Below, piece after piece: positions 8,457-21,293 of a stretch of DNA of 56,873 nucleotides. The position numbers were made by a program, and so were the translations under genes. The notes under the pieces are model-generated. The model worked only from the letters and a program-made list of their open reading frames with translations. It was not told the origin of the DNA and searched no databases. The stretch's first letter is position 1, and each line of letters begins with the position of its first letter. The DNA is from Bacteroidota bacterium (lineage in GTDB: Bacteria; Bacteroidota; Ignavibacteria; UBA10030; UBA8401). The stretch spans positions 1 to 56,873 of the forward strand of contig WBUG01000015.1 in assembly GCA_008933835.1 (NCBI GenBank), given 5' to 3'.

Positions 8457-8566
8457 GCGGAGCGGACCTTCTTTCGGACAGTATACGAAAATCTTTTCTG
8501 ACCTCTGAGTGAAATTCGCGGAGCGATTGAGTACATTCCTCCATTCACCACACCTCAGGAGTGCCC

Positions 8567-10111
8567 ATGTCCGCCGTCCGAACCCTGCTCATGCTCTCGT
8601 TCTCCGCCACTCTTCTCGCCGCACAGTCCATGCCGCGGGACTTCGACGCGTACGTCGACCGGGTGATGAAGACCTTCAACGTGCCCGGCGTCGCGGTGGC
8701 GGTGGTGAAGGACGGGAAGGTGGTGCTGGCGAAAGGGTACGGCGTGAAGCGGACCGGCGAAGCCGGCACGGTGGACGAACGGACGAACTTCAGCATCGCC
8801 TCCAACACCAAGGCCTTCATCGGCACCTCGCTCGGGATGCTGGTGGACGACGGAAAACTCTCCTGGAACGACCGTGTGGTGGACATCCTGCCGTGGTTCC
8901 AGATGTCCGATCCGTACGTGACGCGCGAGATGCGCATCATCGACCTGCTCACGCACCGGAGCGGACTCGGTCTGGGGGCGGGCGACCTGCTCATCTGGCC
9001 GACCAACACCTACACACAGAAGGAAGTGGTGCGCCGCTTCCGGCACGTCCCGCTCGCCGCCAGTTTCCGCAGCACGTACGCGTACGACAACATCCTCTAC
9101 CTCATCGCGGGCGAGGTCATCGAAGCGGTGAGCGGACAGACGTGGGACGAGTTCGTACGGACGCGCATCTTCCGCACATTAGGGATGGACGCGAGCGCGC
9201 TCACCTTCACCGAAGCGGTGCGGATGGGGACCAACGCCACGCCGCACGCGGAGATCGCCGGAACGGTCCGCCCCGTGGCGGCGTCCGACAGCGACAAGAC
9301 CAACCCTGCCGCCACCATCAACACCAATGCGCGGGACATCACCGCCTGGATGATGTGCCAGCTCGATTCCGGACGGTTGTCGGACGGTTCGCGGCTCTTC
9401 AGCGCTTCCGTCGCACGGCAGCTCTGGTCCGTGGTCACCCCGCTCTCCGTTCCGAAGATGCCGCCGGAGCTCGCGCCGTATCAGGCCAACTTCGCGGGGT
9501 ACGGAGGCGGTTTCAACCTTCGCGATTACCGCGGAAAGAAGCTCGTCTGGCATACGGGAGGGTTGAGCGGCTTCGTGTCGCTCGTCGCCTTGATCCCGGA
9601 GGAGCGTCTCGGCGTGGCGGTCTTCACGAACCAGGAGGTCGGGCAGGCGTTCTACGCCATCGGTTGGCGGGCGCTGGACCATTTCCTCGGCGCGAAGTAC
9701 GACTGGCTCACCGCATACCGCACGGTGAAGGCGCGGGCCGATTCGACGAACGCGGCGGCGGAGAAGAAGACGGCCGCTTCCCGGGATTCGCTCTCGACCC
9801 CTTCGCTGCCGCTGGAACGGTACGCGGGACGGTACACGGACCGGTGGTACGGCGACATCACCATCGAGGTCCGCGACGGACAGCTCTTCCTGCAGATGGT
9901 CCCCACGCCGTCGCTCGGCGGCTTCCTCGAACATTACCAGTACGATACGTTCATCGCGCGGTGGAGCGATCCGGAGATGCGGGCGGACGCGTTCGTGACC
10001 TTCTCGCTCACCCCGGAAGGGAAGGTGGAGCAGGCGAAGATGAAGGCGGTCTCCCCCGCCACCGATTTCAGTTTCGACTTCCATGACCTGACGTTGAAGC
10101 CGGTGAAATGA
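8567..10111 (+). CDS. Secreted beta-lactamase-fold serine hydrolase with C-terminal DUF3471-like domain
   Basis: 514 residues. A signal peptide ([21 protein letters not shown]) is followed by a class C beta-lactamase/penicillin-binding-protein fold: SxxK is SNTK (nucleophile Ser79, base Lys82), the second motif is YDN in the YAYDNILYL segment, and the third is HTGG near residue 330. The C-terminal about 100 residues are a lipocalin-like DUF3471 domain. Such proteins are periplasmic esterases, DD-peptidases or peptidases; the substrate is not readable. ATG 8567 is preferred over GTG 8561 because AGGAG at 8557-8561 is five bases upstream. The stop overlaps the VF530 start (ATGA). Confidence 0.85.
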
Positions 10112-10344
10112 TGTCCGGGACGCAGCCCAACAATCCGCTCCACGGCGTCACGCTGGAGATGATGCTCACGGCGCTGGTGGAGCGGCTGGGATGGAAGGAG
10201 ATGGGTCGGCGGGTGCGGATACGATGTTTCACATCGGACCCGAGCATCGCGTCGAGTCTGGTCTTTCTCCGCCGCACTCCGTGGGCGAGGAAGAAAGTGG
10301 AGGAGCTCTACCTCCGTACACACGGAACCCCGCCCGGGAAGTGA
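10108..10344 (+). CDS. VF530-family (DUF2132) small DNA-binding protein
   Basis: A 78-residue protein that spans the whole VF530 domain: [52 protein letters not shown]. The family is a small helical fold reported to bind DNA, found widely in Gammaproteobacteria and Bacteroidota, with no defined pathway. Translation is coupled to the upstream hydrolase through an ATGA overlap; a second in-frame ATG at 10111 is equally possible. Confidence 0.85.
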
Positions 10345-10380: not shown

Positions 10381-11214
10381 TCAGGCTTCCAGGAACATCT
10401 GTCCGAGCACGCCGTCCCAGTCCGCTTTCGGAAAGTGACGGTGGAAATCAGGCACCAGCTCGCCGCCGTCCGCCAGGGTCGCGCCGACCCCCGCCGTCGC
10501 GAACGACACCTGCAGCCGTTCCATCTCCCGCATGATCCACGGCCGCACTTCGGCTCCGCGGAGCAGATGCTCCGTTCCGTTCCCGTTCTCCGCCGGACGA
10601 ACCTTCAGTGTCCAGGCATCCTCCGCTCCGCCGTGCGCCGTCACCTCGCCGTCCACCGGCGAGAGGATGCGCAGCGCTGCCTTGTGCGTCCGCACCTTCC
10701 ATCCCGTTCCGTTCACGGTCACCCGGCTTCCCACGGGAGGCAGTTCCTTCGCATCGGCGGTGCCGATGATGCGCTTGCCGAAATCGTCCAGACCGACCAG
10801 GTAATTCCCTTCATTGTCCGGCGCCACCCACGTGTGTCCGCGGTGGTACATCCGGTCCGCCGGCATCGCGAATCCGAGCACGTCCTCCTGCAGCGTCAGG
10901 GGAGAGACGCCCCGGCCTTCCAGCGGCGGGAAGGTGCGGTGGAGCGGACACGTGCGGCAGTCGAACGCGTGGTCGCACTGGCGGTGCGCCACGTCGCCGG
11001 TGAACTGATGCCGGCAGGAACGGGCCGCGGGGGCCAGGTCTTCGAAGTCCGAATGCCAGAGGATGGCCTCGGCCGCGCCGGTCGCATGGGCCTTCGCCGT
11101 GCGGCGGAGCGCCGTCGTCAGCGTGGCGGCCACCACCATGAAGACGGTGAAGAAGACCGAGAGGAAGATGATGTGGAAGGGTGTCCAGTGGAACTCGTAG
11201 ACCCAGGGCAGCAT
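10381..11214 (-). CDS. Membrane-anchored GcvH-like lipoyl-domain protein, lipoyl lysine present
   Basis: 277 residues, last gene of the Qrc-like operon. An N-terminal membrane helix (about 14-36) is followed by a Cys-rich segment, Cys67, Cys80, Cys86 and Cys89 with several His, and then a GcvH fold: HTWVAPDNEGNYLVGLDDFG at 127-146 and HKAALRILSPVDGEV at 177-191. Lys178 lies eight residues before the Pro of SPVDG, where glycine-cleavage H protein carries lipoate, so the protein is probably lipoylated. The tail holds GATLADGG (244-251), a motif shared with two other proteins of the operon. No gcvT, gcvP or lipoamide dehydrogenase gene is nearby, so a role in glycine cleavage is unlikely; a thiol redox carrier docked to the complex is my inference. 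Confidence 0.85.
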   Translation of the reverse strand: MLPWVYEFHWTPFHIIFLSVFFTVFMVVAATLTTALRRTAKAHATGAAEAILWHSDFEDLAPAARSCRHQFTGDVAHRQCDHAFDCRTCPLHRTFPPLEGRGVSPLTLQEDVLGFAMPADRMYHRGHTWVAPDNEGNYLVGLDDFGKRIIGTADAKELPPVGSRVTVNGTGWKVRTHKAALRILSPVDGEVTAHGGAEDAWTLKVRPAENGNGTEHLLRGAEVRPWIMREMERLQVSFATAGVGATLADGGELVPDFHRHFPKADWDGVLGQMFLEA

Positions 11215-11230
11215 GACGTTCTCCGTTCAG

Positions 11231-12556
11231 TTACAGTTTTGAGGATGCGAAACGATCGATGAGGGCCGTGACGAACGACGGACGGCGGGGGAACGACGGC
11301 GCGGGGGCCTCCGCGGCGTCCGCGCGCGCCATGGAGAGCTCCTTCTCCTGCGGGAAGACCGTGGCGTACCGGTACGTGACCGAGTACAGGATCATGCCGT
11401 AGGCGATGACGAAGAGGAACGCGGCCACCTCCTCCCAGCTCGGGAGGTACGTGAGGAACGCATCGAACGGCAGCGTGGGCAGCGCGAGCGTCTGGATGGT
11501 CATCACGAACCGGTTCAGCAGCACGCCGCAGCAGACCAGCGCGCCGGCGGTGAAGAGCACGCGGCGGTTCCGGCGCATCCGATCGCTGAGCAGCACCAGG
11601 GCGGGGAGCAGTCCGAAGAGCACGATCTCCGTGAAGAGGATCCAGGTCCCGAAGGAACGCGTGGCGTAGAACTCGAACGCCGGGAAGCCGCTCCCGGGGG
11701 AGGTGCTGTTGATCCAGATGAGCGTGTCGACCGTCTTCAGCAGCACGTACGCGATGAGCATGATGCCGCTCACCCGGCCGAGGAACCGGTACACGTCGTC
11801 GCGGACCAGCCGTTTGCGCGTCACCGCCTCCGCCAGGCGCGTGGTGAGCATGATGAAGCTCGGACCCGCCGCCGCCGCGGAGATGACGAACAGGAAGAAG
11901 GTGGAGGGCCAGATGCCGAGCTCTTCGCGGAAGGCGAACGGCCGGCCGCGCAGCACGCCGAACAATCCGCCCAGCGAGCCCTGATGGAAGAACGACAGCA
12001 GCGTGCCGATCCCCGCGAACACCGGCATCAGTTTGTGCAGCTGGAACTCGAACACGAGGAACTTCGGGATCTGCCGCAGCTGCCGGTTCTTGAGCACGAT
12101 GGGGATGTACTCGATGAGCAGCACGATGAGGTAGCAGGTCAGGCAGAACGTCACTTCGGTCAGCATCGAATGCGTGTTGGGATGCCAGAAGGTGAACCAG
12201 GCGCGCAGCGGCTGCCCGACGTCCACCATCAGCACCAGCACCGCGCCGGAGTAGCAGATGAGGCCGATGATGACGGCGCTGTTGATGACCGCCTTCAGCT
12301 CCGTACGGCGGAGGATGTACAGCAGGAATCCGGTGAAGAACGCGCCGGCGCCGAGGGCGATCACCGTCAGGTCAAGGAAGATCCAGATGCCGAACGCGAA
12401 CCGGTTGTCCATGTTCGTGTGGTAGAGACCTTCGATGAGACAGAGGTAGATGGCGTAGAGACCAACGAGCAGCAGGGCGCTCCACGGCAGCAGCCAGAGC
12501 AGGAAGCGGCCGAAGGTGGTGCGCTGGACACCGCGGGGGATGAGCAGACTATCCAT
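11231..12556 (-). CDS. NrfD/QrcD-like quinone-interacting membrane subunit
   Basis: 441 residues with about ten hydrophobic helices. The start of the core, FGIWIFLDLTVIALGAGAFFTGFL, is typical of NrfD/PsrC/HybB membrane proteins, which exchange electrons and protons with the menaquinone pool without haem. Charged residues that may line a proton path sit inside helices (for example Asp in FLDLTVIALGAG and Glu in LTEVTFCLTCYLIVLLIEY). The ATG at 12556 overlaps the end of the iron-sulfur gene by 8 bases; the longer open frame to 12832 is a shadow. It would anchor the periplasmic FeS and MopB subunits, as QrcD or ActC does. Confidence 0.9.
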   Translation of the reverse strand: MDSLLIPRGVQRTTFGRFLLWLLPWSALLLVGLYAIYLCLIEGLYHTNMDNRFAFGIWIFLDLTVIALGAGAFFTGFLLYILRRTELKAVINSAVIIGLICYSGAVLVLMVDVGQPLRAWFTFWHPNTHSMLTEVTFCLTCYLIVLLIEYIPIVLKNRQLRQIPKFLVFEFQLHKLMPVFAGIGTLLSFFHQGSLGGLFGVLRGRPFAFREELGIWPSTFFLFVISAAAAGPSFIMLTTRLAEAVTRKRLVRDDVYRFLGRVSGIMLIAYVLLKTVDTLIWINSTSPGSGFPAFEFYATRSFGTWILFTEIVLFGLLPALVLLSDRMRRNRRVLFTAGALVCCGVLLNRFVMTIQTLALPTLPFDAFLTYLPSWEEVAAFLFVIAYGMILYSVTYRYATVFPQEKELSMARADAAEAPAPSFPRRPSFVTALIDRFASSKL

Positions 12557-13322
12557 GGAATTCCTCCTGCCGGGTCCTGGTGAGCGAGCGTTCCGCCAGG
12601 GCGCGCACCCAGGGTTTCGTGGTGTGGTAGTAGACCTTCGGTTCCGTGCCGAGCCGCGCCAGGAACCGGAACGCGCCGTCGCTCTTGGAGAGACGGCACA
12701 CGTCGCTCTCCTCGTCGTTGAGGTCGCCGAACGTGATGGCGTTGGTCGGACACGAAGCGACGCAGGCGGGGACGTAGTCCGCCGGATCGATCTCGTTCCG
12801 TCCGGCCGCGGCCGCCTTCTCCCGGGCCGCATGGAGCCGGCCGTGACAGAAGTTGCACTTCTCCACCACGCCGCGCATCCGCGGGGCGACGGCGGGGTTC
12901 AGCTGTGCCTTCATTCCGTCGGTCCATTCGGGGTCGCGCCAGTTGAACGTGCGCGCGTGGTACGGGCAGGCCGTCATGCAGTAGCGGCAGCCGAGACAGC
13001 GCTGCGGCACCTGGCCGACGATGCCGGTCACAGGGTCCACGTCCACCGCGTTCTGCGGACAGACCGTCATGCACGGCGTCTCGTTCTCGCACTGCTGGCA
13101 GAACATCGGGATGTAGGCCGTATCGCCCGCGGGGAACTGTTCATGGTTCGACACGGCGGAGACGTTCATCAGACTCACCGCGTTCCGTGTGTTCGCCTGC
13201 TGATGGGCCGGGGGGACGTTGTTCTCGACCGCGCAGGCGACCGCGCAGGCGCCGCAGCCGTTGCAACGGTCGAGGTCGATGACCATTCCGTATCGTTGCC
13301 GTTTGGGTGTCGTTGTTTCCAT
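12549..13322 (-). CDS. Four-cluster iron-sulfur subunit (QrcC/DmsB/PsrB-like)
   Basis: 257 residues with four ferredoxin-like Cys groups: CNGCGACAVAC near 20-30, CQQCENETPC with MTVCP near 75-90, CLGCRYCMTACP near 110-120, and CNFC near 155 with CVASCP near 190. This is the pattern of the electron-wire subunit of the DMSO-reductase superfamily. There is no signal of its own; partner export with the Tat-dependent MopB subunit is expected from the family. The start lies 3 bases after the MopB stop, and the end overlaps NrfD, so the core is translationally coupled. Confidence 0.9.
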   Translation of the reverse strand: METTTPKRQRYGMVIDLDRCNGCGACAVACAVENNVPPAHQQANTRNAVSLMNVSAVSNHEQFPAGDTAYIPMFCQQCENETPCMTVCPQNAVDVDPVTGIVGQVPQRCLGCRYCMTACPYHARTFNWRDPEWTDGMKAQLNPAVAPRMRGVVEKCNFCHGRLHAAREKAAAAGRNEIDPADYVPACVASCPTNAITFGDLNDEESDVCRLSKSDGAFRFLARLGTEPKVYYHTTKPWVRALAERSLTRTRQEEFHG

Positions 13323-13325
13323 GGA

Positions 13326-15422
13326 TCACGCTTTCTGAATGAAGGCCGGGGTGATTCTCCAGGTTCCGTCCGCCGCCACGGCGCACAGGTCGAGCATCGT
13401 GCGGCCGGAGGGATGACGCGGCGTCTCGGCGCCGTTGGGAAGGGGACCGATGACCGCCTCGATGGTGTCCGGACGGACACCCGCGTCGGTGCGAACCCGC
13501 ACCGTCATCGTGCCGCGGTCGGTGGAGACCGTCGCGGCATCGCCCGCGTTCAGTCCGAAGGAGGACGCAGTGAGGGGATTCAGCAGGACGGTGCCGGCAT
13601 TGTGCCGGAGTTCCGATTCCTGGAACACTTTGCTGAGCACCGGGGAGATCTGCGAGGCGGAGACCGTACCGCGCCAGCCGTTCGCGATCATTGCGAGACC
13701 CTGCATCGTCGGCGCCGCCGCGTCGGTCCCGGTCAGACCGAGGGTGAAGCGGGGCATCGCGCCGGTGCGTTCCGGTTCGTCCGTCCATCGCGCGCCGCCG
13801 GTGAAGAGGGTCCAGAGCTCTTCCGCTGAACCGATCTCCGCGACGGCAGTGACGGAACCGTCCGGTGTGCGGACACTTCCGCGCTTCGAAGCGTGTACGG
13901 CTTCCGCCGTTCGCTTCGCCGCGTCTTCCGATGACGGAAATTCCGGCGCGATGCCGAGTTCCGCCGCCAGAAGCCGGAGCACGTCGGAGGGTTCGGCGGT
14001 GTGTTCGTTCTTCGGAAGCAGAGGCATCGAGACCGCGAACGAGGCGGCGGGAGCGCCCGGTCCGTTCGGTATCCCGGCCGCCGCTTCGTACGGGGCCGGA
14101 GCGGGTATGAGGACGTCGGCATGCGCCGATACGGTGTTGAGCACCGGAGAGAAGGAGACGACGAGAGCGTCCTTCTGAAGCTTCCGCTCGATGAGCTCCC
14201 ACGGAACGGCGTATCCGGAATCGGCGCCGTCCACGAACAGCACGCCGATGGAACGGTCCGGCGCTTCGGCCAGCGTCATCGCAGGAGCGTGTGCGGGGAT
14301 TCCCGGCACGGTGGTGCGGCGGACGATGCCGCCGCGGCGGCCGACCGCCCCGATGAGCACGTTGATGGCGGCGACGGCCTTCTGCGTCTCCGCATCGAAC
14401 GGCCCGCCGCCGGCGTCGGCTCCGCTCAGTACCACCGCTCCGTCGGAGGCGGCCAGCCGTACGGCGAGATCGCGCACGACAGGTGCGGCGATGCCGGTGA
14501 CCGGTGCGGCCGCTTCCGGCGTCAGCGGACGGGTGGTGCGGAGGGCGTCGTTCAGGTCCGCCACGTTCCGTTTCACTGCGGCGGTGACGAGCCCTTCGTG
14601 CAGCAGCACGTTGAGCACGCTCAGAGCGAGCAGACGTTCCGTTCCGGGACGCACCGGGAGCCATTCGTGCGCCTGAGCGGCCGTACGGGAACGGCGGCAG
14701 TCGACCTGCACGAAGCGCGCTGCGCCGTTCAGGCGGAGGGACTGCATCACGGAAGGGACGCCCCATCCGTCGAGCAGCGGTGCGCCGAACGAGACGATGA
14801 GCGTGCTGTTCTCAAGGTCGAAACCATAATTGTGTGACGGGACGGACGACATCGCGCGCAAACGGGCGACGGTCTCCTCTTCGCGGGAGGAAGGGACGAG
14901 GTAGAGTCCGTCCGCCGCGGCGAGGAACGTGCGGTACTGTTCCGACACCGGCCGGCCGGGCTGATGGTCCAGCACCGCGGTGCTGCCGATGCGGAGGGCG
15001 AGACGCTTCGAGATGACGGCGGCCGCTTCGTTCAGCGGCACGGCGGTCATCGTGCTCATATCGTCGCGTCCGGAGAAGAGATGCGGATGGACGATACGGA
15101 GCGGATGATGGGCGAGGTGATGCCCCGCCAGTCCGGGAGCGCACAGCCCGCCGTCGATGCCGGCAAGACGGTACGGTGTTCCGCCGACGCAGTCCGCTTG
15201 CACCGCACAGCCGGCCTGGCAGAGGGTGCAGCGGGAGACGAGGGAGGAGAGCGGTCCGTGGGAGAGCTTCGGGGTGAGGGACCAGTTCTGCGTCCAGATG
15301 GCGGAATCGTCCAGCAGTTTCCACGGAAGCGGCGAGAGCATCACGCCCAGTAACGTTCCGCCGGAGTACTTCAGGATGTCGCGTCGTGTGAGCTTCGAAG
15401 GCATAACGGTCTTTCGGTTCAT
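13326..15422 (-). CDS. Tat-exported molybdopterin-oxidoreductase-like subunit (QrcB-like)
   Basis: 698 residues. The N-terminus has a Tat signal (LTRRDILKYSGGTLLGVML). A [4Fe-4S] site is formed by Cys65, Cys68, Cys72 and Cys94 (SRCTLCQAGC then GGLCAPG). Later motifs fit the MopB fold: INVLIGAVGRRGGIV in the Rossmann part and FGLNAGDAATVSTDRG in the C-terminal barrel. I see no convincing Mo ligand (the usual Cys, Ser or Asp loop reads LLDGWGVPS), and the gene order matches qrcABCD, in which QrcB lacks molybdenum. Whether it binds a pterin or acts only as a scaffold is open. The start overlaps the cytochrome stop (ATGA). Confidence 0.85.
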   Translation of the reverse strand: MNRKTVMPSKLTRRDILKYSGGTLLGVMLSPLPWKLLDDSAIWTQNWSLTPKLSHGPLSSLVSRCTLCQAGCAVQADCVGGTPYRLAGIDGGLCAPGLAGHHLAHHPLRIVHPHLFSGRDDMSTMTAVPLNEAAAVISKRLALRIGSTAVLDHQPGRPVSEQYRTFLAAADGLYLVPSSREEETVARLRAMSSVPSHNYGFDLENSTLIVSFGAPLLDGWGVPSVMQSLRLNGAARFVQVDCRRSRTAAQAHEWLPVRPGTERLLALSVLNVLLHEGLVTAAVKRNVADLNDALRTTRPLTPEAAAPVTGIAAPVVRDLAVRLAASDGAVVLSGADAGGGPFDAETQKAVAAINVLIGAVGRRGGIVRRTTVPGIPAHAPAMTLAEAPDRSIGVLFVDGADSGYAVPWELIERKLQKDALVVSFSPVLNTVSAHADVLIPAPAPYEAAAGIPNGPGAPAASFAVSMPLLPKNEHTAEPSDVLRLLAAELGIAPEFPSSEDAAKRTAEAVHASKRGSVRTPDGSVTAVAEIGSAEELWTLFTGGARWTDEPERTGAMPRFTLGLTGTDAAAPTMQGLAMIANGWRGTVSASQISPVLSKVFQESELRHNAGTVLLNPLTASSFGLNAGDAATVSTDRGTMTVRVRTDAGVRPDTIEAVIGPLPNGAETPRHPSGRTMLDLCAVAADGTWRITPAFIQKA

Positions 15423-16000
15423 TTATGGCAGGCCACGCAGCCGTCGCGGCGGCCGCGGTCGTCGTGACAGCGGACGCACCGGTCCATCTTCATCCCTTCC
15501 CAGGGATTGGAGGCGAAGCCGGAGATGTTCGGGCCCCAGATGTCGCGGCTGTAGCCGGAGATGCGGTTCACCTGGTACGCACGGAGCGTGTCGCTGCTGC
15601 CGTGCGGTCCGTGACAATCGGCGCATTCCATCGCGCCGAGGGTCACATGGGCGTTGTGCGGGAAGTGGGCGTTGTCCGGCTGGCGTGCGTACACTTTCCA
15701 TTCGATCTCCCGGTTCGGCGTCACGTACTGCTCGACGAGCTGCAGCTCGGACGCCGATTCGCCGATGGGGGCGGAGTGGCACTCCGCGCACTTGGCGACG
15801 GCGGGGATCCCCTGGAAGCGTCCCTGTTCGTCCACGGCATGACAGTCCGCGCACGCCATCCCCGCCTTCTCTCCGGCATGGGTGGCGTGACTGAAGTGCA
15901 ACGGCTGCGGCTCGGTGGAGTAGAGCGCCAGGGGGAAGACGAACCAGCCCAGGGCGAGGCCCGAGACGATACCGGCGGTGAGGACGATGGCGGATCTCAT
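15419..16000 (-). CDS. Membrane-anchored pentahaem cytochrome c (QrcA/ActA-like)
   Basis: 193 residues. An uncleaved signal-anchor (IVLTAGIVSGLALGWFVFPLAL) is followed by five CxxCH haem sites: Cys50-His54, Cys71-His75, Cys126-His130, Cys175-His179 and Cys188-His192. Extra His residues (FSHATHAGEK, HFPHNAHV) are candidate sixth ligands for bis-His haems. It would be the periplasmic electron donor or acceptor of the complex. The ATG at 16000 overlaps the GcvH-like stop (ATGA); the longer open frame reaching 16759 is a shadow of that gene. Confidence 0.9.
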   Translation of the reverse strand: MRSAIVLTAGIVSGLALGWFVFPLALYSTEPQPLHFSHATHAGEKAGMACADCHAVDEQGRFQGIPAVAKCAECHSAPIGESASELQLVEQYVTPNREIEWKVYARQPDNAHFPHNAHVTLGAMECADCHGPHGSSDTLRAYQVNRISGYSRDIWGPNISGFASNPWEGMKMDRCVRCHDDRGRRDGCVACHK

Positions 16001-16932
16001 ACGTGTGCGTTCCAGACGGCTTGCAGTGAAAAGAATTCGTTGTAGAGGGAGAGCAGTTCGTCCTTGCCGAGGTGGCGGACGAGACCGGTTTGGAACGACC
16101 CGCCGTCGGCCATGAGCACGGCCCCCTTCATGTCCGGGCGCGCGGCGACGCGGTGCGCGAGGGACGTCATGCGCTCCTTCTCGCGCTGCATCCACACGAG
16201 CGCGTCGGCGCCGTTCATCAGTCCGTCGCTGCCGGCGTTCCGCGGAAGGGAACGGTCCGGCGTCGCTTCGAACAGCCAGCCGAGCGTGTACGGGTCTGAC
16301 GTGATCTTCTCCGGATGCGTGCGCAGGTAGGTGTTCGCCCGCTTGATGTTCATCCGGAGCGGGAAGATGAACTGCATCTCGACGCCGTTGACGGAGAACG
16401 AGACCGCCGGACGATGGAACCCTTTGGTGGTGACGAACGTGACGTGGTCGATGGTGCCGAGCGCTTTGGTGAGGAACGCGTCCACACCGATGTGGCAGGT
16501 GCCGTCGCTCCCTTCCTCCATCCACATGTGGTTCTGCGCGTAGAGGAGGTGGGCGGGCACTTTCACGTCGTCCTCCGTCAGGACGCCGGTCCCTTCGGCG
16601 ACGGCGGTCCCTTCGGGCTGGGCCAGTCCGAGGAACAGCTCGCAGTACCGGTGACTGTCCGTACCGCACTGCGACAGGACCGATTCGCTGTAGGGGATGT
16701 ACTTCGTGACGGCGGCGGCCGTGCAGTACTGCACGAGCGATTCGTGGAGGAACGGACAATGGTCCGCGCTCGGGTGCTCTTCCAGGTGCTGCTTCGCCGC
16801 CGGGCAGTTCACGTACTCGGAGGAGGAGCAGCGTTCCGCCGCGGGCTGTTCGGCCAGCCGGACGATGAGCTTCCGGTAGGCCGATGCCCGGCAGAACTTC
16901 ACCTGTGCTTCACGTAAGAATGGACAACGCAT
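15997..16932 (-). CDS. Cys-rich GcvH-like protein lacking the lipoyl lysine
   Basis: 311 residues. The N-terminal 100 residues contain two copies of a Cys unit: Cys3, Cys14, Cys35, Cys43 and Cys59, Cys70, Cys89, Cys97, each opening with CPFL(R/H)E. A GcvH-like fold follows (HMWMEEGSDGTCHIGVDAFL at 135-154 and DPYTLGWLFEA at 213-223). At the lipoyl position the sequence reads VNGVEMQFIFP, with no Lys, so it cannot be lipoylated in the usual way. The tail carries GAVLMADGG. No membrane segment or signal is visible, so it is probably cytoplasmic. It may be a docking partner or cluster-binding subunit for the lysine-bearing paralogue at the end of the operon; that role is inferred. Confidence 0.8.
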   Translation of the reverse strand: MRCPFLREAQVKFCRASAYRKLIVRLAEQPAAERCSSSEYVNCPAAKQHLEEHPSADHCPFLHESLVQYCTAAAVTKYIPYSESVLSQCGTDSHRYCELFLGLAQPEGTAVAEGTGVLTEDDVKVPAHLLYAQNHMWMEEGSDGTCHIGVDAFLTKALGTIDHVTFVTTKGFHRPAVSFSVNGVEMQFIFPLRMNIKRANTYLRTHPEKITSDPYTLGWLFEATPDRSLPRNAGSDGLMNGADALVWMQREKERMTSLAHRVAARPDMKGAVLMADGGSFQTGLVRHLGKDELLSLYNEFFSLQAVWNAHV

Positions 16933-16958
16933 GGCGCATCGCTCCCTTCGGCGTGACG

Positions 16959-17237
16959 TCAGTTCTCTGACCGTTGAATGTGCTTCTCGTCGTTCTTCGT
17001 TTCCGTCTCGTTCTTGTCGAGACGCTTGCCGCCGTCCGCCATCGTCACGCCGAGTTCGCCGAGCAGGAACGAATGGTCATCCTGCAGTTGCGGCACGCGC
17101 ACTTTCGCGCGGGCGTCCGCGAAGAACTCCTTCGCCACCACCACACCCACCGCGACGAAACAAATGACGGTCACGATACCGAGTCCGGCGTTCGTGATGG
17201 TCAGCCATACGGTTTCGGAATTCATGGATTCAAACAT
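16959..17237 (-). CDS. Small single-pass membrane protein, first gene of the Qrc-like operon
   Basis: 92 residues: one membrane helix (about 12-36, LTITNAGLGIVTVICFVAVGVVV), then a cytoplasmic-type charged tail with LGVTMADGG at 62-70 and a Lys/Glu/Asn-rich end. The ADGG motif recurs in both GcvH-like proteins of the operon, which ties this gene functionally to them. ATG 17237 is chosen because AAAGGAG lies eight bases upstream. It is 53 bases after the predicted sigma-54 start site. I do not recognise a named family. Confidence 0.75.
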   Translation of the reverse strand: MFESMNSETVWLTITNAGLGIVTVICFVAVGVVVAKEFFADARAKVRVPQLQDDHSFLLGELGVTMADGGKRLDKNETETKNDEKHIQRSEN

Positions 17238-17300: not shown

Positions 17301-17316
17301 GGCAAAGAGCGTGCCT
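17301..17316 (-). promoter_or_regulatory. Sigma-54 promoter of the Qrc-like operon
   Basis: Minus-strand sequence AGGCACGCTCTTTGCC matches the -24/-12 consensus TGGCACG-N4-TTGCA at all core positions (GG at -24, GC at -12, ten bases apart). Predicted start near 17290, about 53 bases before the first ATG. Confidence 0.85.
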
Positions 17317-17704: not shown

Positions 17705-19366
17705 ATGACCCTGAAGCAGCGCGCACTCCGGCTTCCGCCGCATAAGATCTCGCAGAAGCTCATCCTTTCCTTTACCGTCATCATGCTGGTGGTCACCGTC
17801 ATCTCGAGCTATGTGCACGTGAAGACGCAGGAACAGCAGCTGCTCGACGCGATGATGCTCGGCGCGGACCAGCTCTCCGGAAGCATCTCGAGCGCCACCT
17901 GGCACGCGATGCTGGCGGACCAGCGCGACGCCGCGTACCAGACGATGGAGACCATCGCGCAGAAGCAGGGGATCACCCGCATCCGCATCTTCAACAAGGA
18001 GGGGCGCATCATGTACTCTACGATGCGCAGCGATACGGGGGTGGTGGACAAAGCGGCCGAGGCGTGTTTCATGTGCCACGCCGCGGAACAGCCGGTGGTG
18101 AAGGTCGACGTGCCGACACGCGCGCGCGTCTATCACACCGCCGAGGGTCTTCGGACCCTCTCTATGATCACTCCCATCTATAACGAACCCTCCTGCACCG
18201 TGGCGGAATGCCACGCCCATCCCGAATCGCAGAGCGTGCTCGGCGTGCTCGACGTGTCCATGAGCCTGGACATGGTCGACGCCGAGATGGCGCAGCTGCA
18301 GGTGCGGGTCATCATCATCTCGCTGTCTGTGATGGCGGTCGTGAGCCTCTTCACGATGGTCTTCACGAAGTACATCATCGACCGTCCCATCCGGCAGCTC
18401 ATCGCCGGCACGCATGCGGTGAGCGAGATGCAGTTGGACCGTCCCATCGTCATCGAATCGAGCGAGGAGCTCGGTGAACTGGCCCATTCGTTCGACGTGA
18501 TGCGCATCCGGCTGAAGGAAGCGCTGGACGAGATCAACGAGTTCACCGAAGGACTGGAACGGAAAGTGCGCGAACGGACCGACCAGCTCAAGGTCGCTCA
18601 TCAGAAGCTCCTCCACAGCGACCGGCTCGCCTCCCTCGGCCAGCTCTCCGCGAGCGTCGCGCACGAGATCAACAATCCCGTCTCGGGCGTCCTCAACCTC
18701 GCCATGCTGATGCAGCGCATCATGAAGGAGGACGGCGTCCCGAAGGAGCGCGTCGAGGAGTTCCGGAAGTACCTTGCACAGGTGGTGCACGAGACCTCCC
18801 GCGTCGGACGCATCGTGCAGGACCTGCTCGCCTTTTCACGCCGCTCAAAGCCGTCGCGCGCCAAGATCGACTTCAACGCCGTCATCCGTACCACGGTCAG
18901 TCTTCTGGACCATAAACTGAAGCTCTCCGGAGTACGGATGGAGCTCCTTCTGGGAGAGCACCTCCCGCCGGTCCACTGCGACTCGTCACAGATGCAGCAG
19001 GTGGTCATCAACCTGGTGATGAACGCCGCCGAAGCGGCGCAGGGGAAGCCCGACGGCGCCGTCACCGTCACCACGCGTACCGGTGAGCATGACCGTCAGG
19101 TCCTCTTCATCGTAGCGGACAACGGGGACGGCATCACGGAGGAGAACCTACAGCGCATCTTCAGTCCCTTTTTCACGACCAAAGGAGAGGGGAAAGGGGT
19201 GGGGCTGGGTCTCGCCGTGGTCTTCGGCATCGTCGAAGCGCACAAGGGGGACATCGACGTGAAGAGCGAGCTCGGCGTCGGCACCGTCTTCACCGTGACG
19301 CTGCCGGCGGACGAAGCGGTGCCGGACGGACCGGACGATATCGAAGCGGGGACAGCGGCAGCGTGA
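17705..19366 (+). CDS. Membrane histidine kinase with periplasmic haem-binding sensor domain
   Basis: 553 residues: TM1 (about 18-37), a periplasmic region (38-200), TM2 (about 201-222), HAMP, then a HisKA/HATPase core with phospho-acceptor His320 in SVAHEINNP, N box NLVMNAAEAA, DNGDGI, FFTTK and GVGLGLAV. The periplasmic domain carries a canonical haem site CFMCH (121-125) and a second, wider site Cys164-x4-Cys169-His170, so it probably binds one or two c-type haems and senses a redox state or a gaseous ligand. It is encoded with its likely partner, the NtrC-type regulator, and divergently from a cytochrome-containing respiratory operon. The stop overlaps the next start (GTGA). Confidence 0.9.
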   Translation: MTLKQRALRLPPHKISQKLILSFTVIMLVVTVISSYVHVKTQEQQLLDAMMLGADQLSGSISSATWHAMLADQRDAAYQTMETIAQKQGITRIRIFNKEGRIMYSTMRSDTGVVDKAAEACFMCHAAEQPVVKVDVPTRARVYHTAEGLRTLSMITPIYNEPSCTVAECHAHPESQSVLGVLDVSMSLDMVDAEMAQLQVRVIIISLSVMAVVSLFTMVFTKYIIDRPIRQLIAGTHAVSEMQLDRPIVIESSEELGELAHSFDVMRIRLKEALDEINEFTEGLERKVRERTDQLKVAHQKLLHSDRLASLGQLSASVAHEINNPVSGVLNLAMLMQRIMKEDGVPKERVEEFRKYLAQVVHETSRVGRIVQDLLAFSRRSKPSRAKIDFNAVIRTTVSLLDHKLKLSGVRMELLLGEHLPPVHCDSSQMQQVVINLVMNAAEAAQGKPDGAVTVTTRTGEHDRQVLFIVADNGDGITEENLQRIFSPFFTTKGEGKGVGLGLAVVFGIVEAHKGDIDVKSELGVGTVFTVTLPADEAVPDGPDDIEAGTAAA

Positions 19367-19926
19367 AGTCGATCGTGCTCATACCGTTCGGCCCGGTCCC
19401 GCCGGAGGTGCTGGACGCGCTCGAGGTGGGATTATGGCAGGAGTTCGGGTTCGGTGTGCGGCGGGGGGAGGCGCTTCCCGACCCGGCGTACGCGTTCGAC
19501 CAGCATGCGAACCAGTACAGCTCCGCGATGATGCTCAAGGACCTGCTCCGGCGAGTTCCGTCCGACGCGGTCCGGGTGCTGGGCGTGACCGAGCGGGACC
19601 TCTTCATTCCGATGCTCAGCTTCGTCTTCGGTCACGCGCAGGTGAACGGCCCGGCCGCGGTCATCTCCCTGGCCCGGTTGCGGCAGGAGTTCTACCGGCT
19701 CCCGCCGAATCCGCCCCTCTTCCTCCGCCGCGTGATGAAGGAGGCGGTGCACGAGCTCGGCCACACGTTCGGACTGGTGCACTGCGCGGACACGCGCTGC
19801 GCGATGTCCCTCTCCAACGCCATTCAGCATGTCGATACAAAAACGGAAGAGCTGTGCCCGTCCTGCACCATCCTCTTCCAGGATTCCGTCCATCAAATCC
19901 GCCAGCACTCTGGCGAGGAGCATTGA
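19363..19926 (+). CDS. Archaemetzincin-like zinc metalloprotease
   Basis: 187 residues. The zinc motif HELGHTFGLVH (His130, His134, His140; catalytic Glu131) is followed at once by Cys141 and Cys146, then Met148 for the Met-turn and a CPSC pair at 165-168, the four-Cys arrangement that defines archaemetzincins. No signal peptide is seen, so it is probably cytoplasmic. Bacterial archaemetzincins have no known substrates. Here it is wedged between a histidine kinase and its regulator with a GTGA overlap upstream and a 2-base gap downstream, so it should be made in step with them. A role in processing a component of the respiratory complex or the signalling proteins is inference. Confidence 0.85.
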   Translation: MKSIVLIPFGPVPPEVLDALEVGLWQEFGFGVRRGEALPDPAYAFDQHANQYSSAMMLKDLLRRVPSDAVRVLGVTERDLFIPMLSFVFGHAQVNGPAAVISLARLRQEFYRLPPNPPLFLRRVMKEAVHELGHTFGLVHCADTRCAMSLSNAIQHVDTKTEELCPSCTILFQDSVHQIRQHSGEEH

Positions 19927-19928
19927 CA

Positions 19929-21293
19929 ATGAAGAAGATGTGGAACATCATGGTCGTCGACGACGAGGAAGTGATGCGCGAATCGCTCGCGGCCTGGCTG
20001 CGGGAGGACGGTTACACCGTCGACACCGCCGAATCGGGGAAGGAGGCCATCGAGAAGGCCCGCGCGCGGGAGTACGCCATCTGTTTCGTCGACCTGAAGA
20101 TGCCCGGCGGGTACGACGGCATCGAGACGATGATGGAGATCCGCCTCCTCCGTCCCGAGGCCTCCATCATCATCGTCACGGCGTACGCCACGGTCGACAC
20201 GGCCATCACCGCGATGAAGGAGGGTGCGCAGGAGTACATCGTGAAGCCGTGCAATCCCGAAGAGATCTCGCTGCTGGTCAGCCGCATCATCAAGATCAAG
20301 AACCTGCAGCGCGAGAACTCCATCCTGCGCAAGAAGCTGAGCAAGCAGTACAGCTTCTGCGACATCATCAGCAAGAACCCGAAGATGGGCGAGATCTTCA
20401 CCCTCGTGCGCGAAGTGTCGAGCCTGCGCAGCACGGTGCTCATCCAGGGGGAGAGCGGCACGGGGAAGGAGATGATCGCCCGCGCCATCCATTTCAGCGG
20501 TGACCGGGCCGCCCGTCCCTTCATCGGCGTCTCCTGCGCCGCCCTCACGGAGTCGCTCCTCGAGTCGGAACTGTTCGGTCACGAGAAGGGCTCCTTCACC
20601 GGTGCCGTCGGACAGAAGAAGGGGAAGTTCGAACTGGCGGAGGGAGGGACCATCTTCCTCGACGAGATCGGCGACATCTCGCCGAAACTGCAGATGAACC
20701 TGCTGCGCGTGCTGCAGGAACGGAACTTCTACCGCGTGGGGGGGACCGAACAGATCTCCGTGGACGTCCGCGTCATCGCCGCCACCAACCGGGACCTCGA
20801 AAAGGCGGTGCGCGACGGGGCGTTCCGCGACGACCTGTTCTACCGTCTCAACGTCATCAACATCCACCTTCCGTCGCTGCGCGATCGGAAGGAGGACATC
20901 CCGCTGCTCGTCCGCGCCTTCATCGAACAGCTCGGTCCGGAGCTCGGCCGGGAGGTGTCGGACATCTCGGAAGGGGCGCTGAAGGTGCTGCTGAACCATC
21001 AGTGGCCGGGGAACGTCCGCGAGCTGGAGAACGCCGTCGAACGGGCCATCGTCACCTGTAAGACCAAAGTGCTCGCCGAAGAGGACTTCACCTTCATCGG
21101 CACCGCTCATCCCACGGAGAAGCAGGAGTGGTGCGTACCGGAGGACCTGACCCTCGACGACCTGACGAACCGTGCCATCACCGCCACGCTCCAGCGGACG
21201 CACGGCAACATCAAGGAGGCGGCCGCCATCCTCGGAGTGGACCGCTCGACACTGTACGACCGCATCAAGAAATACAATCTTCCGCGGAACTGA
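19929..21293 (+). CDS. NtrC-family sigma-54-dependent response regulator
   Basis: 454 residues: receiver domain (1-120, phospho-acceptor Asp55 in FVDLKMPG), AAA+ sigma-54 activation domain (Walker A GESGTGKE at 174-181, sigma-54 contact loop GSFTGA at 221-226, Walker B LDEIGD at 244-249, arginine region FRDDLFYRLNV), and a Fis-type helix-turn-helix (GNIKEAAAILGVDRSTLYDRIKKY). The contact loop has Ser where GAFTGA has Ala. GAGGAG lies upstream of ATG 19929; the open frame back to 19434 is a shadow of the protease gene. Its obvious targets are the two sigma-54 promoters in the divergent intergenic region. Confidence 0.92.
   Translation: MKKMWNIMVVDDEEVMRESLAAWLREDGYTVDTAESGKEAIEKARAREYAICFVDLKMPGGYDGIETMMEIRLLRPEASIIIVTAYATVDTAITAMKEGAQEYIVKPCNPEEISLLVSRIIKIKNLQRENSILRKKLSKQYSFCDIISKNPKMGEIFTLVREVSSLRSTVLIQGESGTGKEMIARAIHFSGDRAARPFIGVSCAALTESLLESELFGHEKGSFTGAVGQKKGKFELAEGGTIFLDEIGDISPKLQMNLLRVLQERNFYRVGGTEQISVDVRVIAATNRDLEKAVRDGAFRDDLFYRLNVINIHLPSLRDRKEDIPLLVRAFIEQLGPELGREVSDISEGALKVLLNHQWPGNVRELENAVERAIVTCKTKVLAEEDFTFIGTAHPTEKQEWCVPEDLTLDDLTNRAITATLQRTHGNIKEAAAILGVDRSTLYDRIKKYNLPRN

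Follow-up and report, generated by a model that had tools for sequence, protein, structure and literature searches.

The 56,873-nucleotide contig WBUG01000015.1 (referred to below, at its full length, as the window), from an Ignavibacteria assembly (GCA_008933835.1), carries a seven-gene operon that encodes the four core proteins of Qrc together with three further proteins, two of them with a GcvH (glycine cleavage H protein) fold (GcvHa and GcvHb) and one a small membrane protein (g1). Qrc is a membrane enzyme of sulfate-breathing bacteria that delivers electrons to the quinone pool. In the order of transcription the seven genes are:

16959..17237, - strand: g1, small protein of 92 residues with a single transmembrane helix and a TMADGG motif, predicted N-out/C-in
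15997..16932, - strand: g2, GcvHa, 311 residues, with a duplicated eight-cysteine (Cys8) domain, a GcvH fold and a C-terminal ADGG; no transmembrane segment or signal, predicted cytoplasmic
15419..16000, - strand: g3, QrcA, membrane-anchored pentahaem cytochrome c (NF041781)
13326..15422, - strand: g4, QrcB, MopB-like subunit predicted to be exported by twin-arginine translocation (Tat), with a conserved N-terminal CxxCxxxC...C (best family NF041783)
12549..13322, - strand: g5, QrcC, four-cluster ferredoxin subunit with Y114 at the predicted quinone site (best family NF041782)
11231..12556, - strand: g6, QrcD, NrfD-family membrane subunit (NF041784)
10381..11214, - strand: g7, GcvHb, with a predicted N-out transmembrane helix, C-x12-C-x5-C-x2-C, a GcvH fold and ADGG (PF01597)

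The original prediction described a tightly coupled operon with overlaps of 4, 4 and 8 bases, and the locus is exactly that: all seven genes are co-directional across 10381-17237, and the successive junctions, 5' to 3', measure +26, -4, -4, +3, -8 and +16 nt. Its remark that no glycine-cleavage genes lie nearby is also borne out, as the true GcvH of the genome (contig C56), which retains the lipoyl motif EAVKA, and GcvP (contig C82) are encoded on other contigs.

By sequence the core is Qrc of the QrcABCD type, as had been proposed from gene order. The core proteins contain Pfam NrfD, four-cluster ferredoxin, molybdopterin-type and c-type cytochrome domains, and all four score best in the NCBIfam QrcA-D families. 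QrcA (206.9 bits against NF041781, cut-off 180) and QrcD (573.8 bits against NF041784, cut-off 570) pass the family thresholds, while QrcC (332.2 bits against NF041782, cut-off 400) and QrcB (261.9 bits against NF041783, cut-off 440) fall under theirs, with these families still top-scoring. Mutagenesis in D. vulgaris found QrcD residues D70, Y110, S138 and Y150 and QrcC Y113 to be essential (PMC13059093). The equivalent QrcD residues D62, Y102, S130 and Y142 are present in 81/81 homologues, and QrcC Y114 (D. vulgaris Y113) is kept with the 16 cluster cysteines in 76/76. QrcD D112, R349 and E404 (Desulfovibrio D120, R358 and E413) are retained in 81, 81 and 78 of the 81 sequences, respectively; residues were matched to Desulfovibrio by position, from the spacing of the residues listed in PMC8076601 and PMC13059093, and no Desulfovibrio sequence was aligned. 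QrcA has exactly five CXXCH motifs in all 64 sequences.

The prediction also depended on the MopB subunit standing apart from the enzymatic molybdenum families, and it does so (1e-77 against the QrcB model, with PhsA next at 2.4e-33). QrcB here retains the CxxCxxxC...C motif, whose four cysteines are kept in 67-68 of about 68 sequences, although Desulfovibrio QrcB is described as cofactor-less. No conserved residue was found in QrcB opposite PsrA Cys173, which we take to be a molybdenum ligand. On the QrcB-model score and the lack of a conserved residue at this position, we reject membership in an enzymatic molybdenum/tungsten bis(pyranopterin guanine dinucleotide) family.

The three additional genes are a fixed part of the set. 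When 84,980 species genomes were searched with an alignment of QrcD, 80 loci were recovered, nearly all of them in metagenome-assembled genomes; they belong to Ignavibacteriota/Bacteroidota, Kryptoniota, KSB1, Eisenbacteria, Acidobacteriota and Myxococcota. All seven genes occur in order at 57 of these, 19 are interrupted by contig ends, and four are exceptions, two of them (L061 and L133) by virtue of an incomplete QrcB end; in the genome of L061, judged to be G017, GcvHa sits on a separate contig. The complete loci come from Bacteroidota/Ignavibacteriota, Kryptoniota, Eisenbacteria and Acidobacteriota, and those of KSB1 and Myxococcota are partial. GcvHb adjoins QrcD in 79/80 loci, the remaining locus stopping at a contig edge. 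Full-length GcvHb homologues in 60 relatives marked 22 loci of identical gene order except at contig ends. When 197 genomes of the class were surveyed with the NCBIfam QrcD model, 22 scored above 500 bits (542-589), the next NrfD protein reaching 182 bits; GcvHb is present in the same 22, and GcvHa in those 22 plus G162 and G084 (one intact and one degenerate case). The genome search that had been proposed as a check thus found the GcvH-like genes conserved beside Qrc cores, and a chance neighbourhood or a misassembly is rejected on the gene order recurring in 57/80 independent loci and on the class survey. These co-occurrence results cover this clade and class, and the four-gene Desulfovibrio form is taken from the literature.

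In the QrcD tree the Acidobacteriota, Bacteroidota and Ignavibacteriota labels are mixed, forcing at least 2, 6 and 5 changes, respectively; not all NCBI labels are clades, and the mixture may include transfer of the module. No Desulfobacterota locus was returned by the QrcD scan, whose patterns came from the present clade, and no close QrcD was found on plasmids and no QrcD in the PDB. In G162 (contig C23:89635-92110) QrcD and GcvHb both contain in-frame stops, which suggests either decay of the module as a unit or sequencing error. Four genomes of family f9 (G062, G072, G090 and G107) have a second GcvHb-like gene after GcvHb that matches the model only from position ~32-45 and apparently lacks the transmembrane helix.

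Both GcvH-like proteins score above the Pfam GCV_H cut-off (PF01597, 22.2 bits; GcvHa 30.1 and GcvHb 35.3 bits), and their AlphaFold models (pLDDT of 85 and 85.8, respectively) match solved H-proteins in Foldseek with E ~1e-8 and TM-scores to the target of 0.84 and 0.78. The position that carries lipoate in H-protein is Gly in 50/59 GcvHa sequences and Lys in none (0/59), and in GcvHb it is Gly in 31/78 and Lys in 6/78, so that K178 of the window GcvHb is an exception within its own family. The conserved residues are instead cysteines. GcvHa has eight (residues 3, 14, 35, 43, 59, 70, 89 and 97; 95-100% conserved, n=59) in a duplicated N-terminal segment (C-x10-C-x20-C-x7-C followed by C-x10-C-x18-C-x7-C), and the four of GcvHb (67, 80, 86 and 89; C-x12-C-x5-C-x2-C) are invariant in 78/78. 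The Cys8 domain has no Pfam match, the Foldseek matches of GcvHa do not reach beyond its GcvH part, and the domain is confined, among the 60 relatives, to the GcvHa of this module. These 8+4 cysteines probably hold metal or iron-sulfur (Fe-S) centres. The GcvHa model places C3 and C14 at the two ends of one strand, and C59 and C70 likewise; from this predicted secondary structure each metal site would have to combine residues of both repeats.

The small protein g1, found in 59 loci, matches no Pfam family and no NCBIfam family significantly. It shares with the GcvH-like proteins a DGG motif (g1 58/59, GcvHa 60/60, GcvHb 75/77); one of the two DGG-less GcvHb proteins belongs to L137, a Myxococcota locus, and neither of the two Myxococcota loci shows GcvHa or the small protein. 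Charge bias around the transmembrane helix places the C-terminus in the cytoplasm for GcvHb (77/77) and g1 (56/59), and GcvHa has no transmembrane segment. The DGG motifs of all three proteins are therefore predicted to be cytoplasmic.

Taken together, the seven-gene set points to an undescribed version of the Qrc respiratory complex. The reading we favour, with moderate confidence, is that of a Qrc variant acting as an electrogenic cytochrome c:menaquinone reductase, to which a non-lipoylated cytoplasmic GcvH/DGG subcomplex has been added that regulates or stabilises the complex. Electrons from periplasmic cytochromes would enter at QrcA and travel by way of QrcC to QrcD, whose menaquinone site is on the periplasmic side, and the protons would come from the cytoplasm. 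Because Qrc takes its protons from the cytoplasm and its electrons from the periplasm, menaquinone reduction would conserve energy and is the expected direction. Membrane-anchored GcvHb, soluble GcvHa and the small protein would form one cytoplasmic subcomplex, probably joined via their DGG motifs and probably bound to the side of QrcD where protons are taken up, with the GcvH fold serving as scaffold rather than as lipoate carrier. Since QrcD has no cofactors, direct electron transfer from the cysteine centres to the quinone is unlikely, and we therefore infer that these centres serve to regulate or stabilise Qrc in response to the cytoplasmic redox state.

The original prediction coupled the membrane complex to a lipoyl or thiol carrier. 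Swinging-arm proteins, lipoylated or otherwise loaded, that ferry electrons or substrate between the Qrc core and some reaction in the cytoplasm would resemble LbpA of the sHdr system, and the H-protein fold common to GcvH, LbpA, GcvHa and GcvHb, together with Lys178 in the window GcvHb, is what speaks for them. GcvHa and GcvHb nevertheless differ from GcvH and LbpA in their additional Cys-rich, transmembrane and DGG segments, neither family conserves the acceptor lysine, and no lipoate ligase is found among the conserved genes; sHdr clusters, by contrast, carry their own lipoylation genes (PMC10332631). We regard lipoyl carriage as highly improbable and reject it on the unconserved lysine. 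The thiol-carrier half of the suggestion is compatible with the data, but near-invariant cysteines in groups of four suit metal or Fe-S sites better. The strongest rival is that the three additional proteins are not stable subunits but assembly factors of QrcB and QrcC, acting in cluster insertion or in proofreading of Tat substrates. The predicted cytoplasmic location of these proteins, where QrcB and QrcC fold prior to export, would suit such a role, and the genes in question flank the core, are cysteine-rich and are partly lost in some lineages. We nonetheless think this unlikely, as GcvHb and the small protein are anchored in the membrane, linkage in 79/80 loci is stricter than is usual for assembly factors, and Desulfovibrio Qrc is made from qrcABCD alone (PMC13059093).

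The four-cysteine groups, and the presence in the same genomes of a GcvH/FeS/NrfD system without MopB, would also fit a second redox entry, in which the cytoplasmic centres feed the quinone reductase so that it is served from both sides of the membrane. With a cofactor-less QrcD and a periplasmic quinone site, however, a cytoplasmic centre would be too distant unless there were a second quinone site, and none is known; we consider this quite improbable. A broader form, which we put forward as an unlikely reading, is that Fe-S centres in the 8+4 cysteines constitute a cytoplasmic redox arm for two-sided electron exchange or redox gating, with the non-lipoylated H-fold as a new respiratory scaffold shared with the second GcvH/FeS/NrfD system.

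Several points weigh against the Qrc variant with a regulatory or stabilising subcomplex. The gene set and its conservation, the conserved residues, the folds and the promoter motif are shown, but the physical presence of the three proteins in the complex, its metal content, the direction of the reaction and the regulatory role are inferred; metal binding is read from cysteine conservation, and the topology of GcvHb and g1 from charge bias. Two of the four exceptional loci are also at odds with it: in L129 (Myxococcota) the small protein and GcvHa are both missing from the region upstream of qrcA, with no GcvHa found elsewhere in that genome, and L084 lacks GcvHa; GcvHa and the small protein are therefore not always needed. 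Finally, QrcA has five haem motifs here, compared to the six haems c reported for Desulfovibrio Qrc (PMC8076601).

In comparison to known systems, the closest is QrcABCD of Desulfobacterota (D. vulgaris), which has the same four core subunits in the order A-B-C-D; every residue of its quinone site and proton path that proved essential when tested is kept here. Among NrfD-family complexes, it alone has been demonstrated by experiment to be electrogenic (PMC13059093). The module differs from it in the three extra conserved genes and in the sub-threshold QrcB and QrcC scores, and also in its host. With no dsrA in the genome, the setting cannot be sulfate respiration, and the host, unlike those of Desulfobacterota Qrc, is not a sulfate reducer. 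Alternative complex III (ActABCDEF) is likewise built of pentahaem cytochrome, MopB/FeS and NrfD modules, but its MopB and FeS parts are fused, its NrfD subunits number two, and it works as a quinol oxidase. In a 2021 survey, QrcD turned up in 35 species, all of them Deltaproteobacteria (PMC8076601). qrcABCD was reported to be transcribed under anoxic conditions in the acidobacterial metagenome-assembled genome CO124 (PMC10564751), which is our locus L106 and has all seven genes in order; where that paper treats Qrc, it names only qrcABCD and no GcvH genes. An unnamed novel family was described beside qrcABCD in Blakebacterota and Orphanbacterota, mostly in genomes without DsrABC (PMC9727166); it is not identified in that text, which does not mention GcvH, and it is possibly g1. 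The occurrence of Qrc outside sulfate reducers and of an odd neighbour gene is thus already known. In the open-licence literature we found no paper joining Qrc or NrfD with GcvH, and none that describes the GcvH-fold proteins, the Cys domain, the constant set of seven genes or the regulatory cassette treated below.

The idea of a distinct respiratory module is upheld to the extent that a Qrc core and three co-inherited proteins form one fixed gene set across phyla. Through the seven-gene form, Qrc reaches into several phyla outside the setting of sulfate respiration and gains three proteins; these bring with them a cysteine-rich domain that matches no Pfam family and an H-protein fold free of lipoate. 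A caution for annotation follows as well: a protein labelled glycine cleavage H protein can belong to a respiratory system.

Upstream of g1 lie a putative promoter and a divergent trio of genes:

17301..17316, - strand: putative sigma-54 -24/-12 promoter AGGCACGCTCTTTGCC, 79 nt before g1
17705..19366, + strand: sensor histidine kinase (HisKA, HATPase, HAMP) whose periplasmic domain contains CFMCH and CTVAECH (probable haem c)
19363..19926, + strand: archaemetzincin-family (M54) protein (PF07998, 94 bits; NF033823, 157.5 bits, cut-off 145)
19929..21293, + strand: NtrC-type sigma-54 activator (Response_reg, Sigma54_activat, HTH_8)

From its sequence the operon likely has a sigma-54 promoter. Scored with a home-made consensus, 60% of the regions before g1 in 58 loci reach a sigma-54 score of >=18, compared to 2.8% of shuffles, which preserve base composition only. 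The trio recurs beside the operon, either upstream or downstream, in many Ignavibacteria and Acidobacteriota loci, with the archaemetzincin between kinase and regulator, and its place beside the operon is conserved in several phyla. Transcription would probably be driven by sigma-54 via the adjoining haem-sensor kinase and the NtrC-type regulator. A metalloprotease within a two-component operon (17705-21293) is unusual, and no paper linking archaemetzincin with a histidine kinase was found in the open-licence literature.

On the downstream side (8561-10344) are a beta-lactamase-fold serine hydrolase (Beta-lactamase and DUF3471) and a VF530-type DNA-binding protein, a pair found together only in close relatives. 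Elsewhere the genome encodes three COX1 proteins, one full-length NiFe hydrogenase near another NrfD gene and, on contig C149, a separate ActB-like MopB/FeS gene with an NrfD gene. A second GcvH/FeS/NrfD system, without MopB and without QrcA, occurs in the same genomes as the Qrc module (locus L006, 5384-10593, on contig C82; also L055-L060) and combines a ferredoxin and an NrfD subunit with two or three DGG proteins of the GcvH type. The C-x12-C-x5-C-x2-C motif of GcvHb recurs in one of these GcvH-type proteins, and on contig C82 the system adjoins a kinase with the same haem-type motifs as the kinase upstream of the operon.

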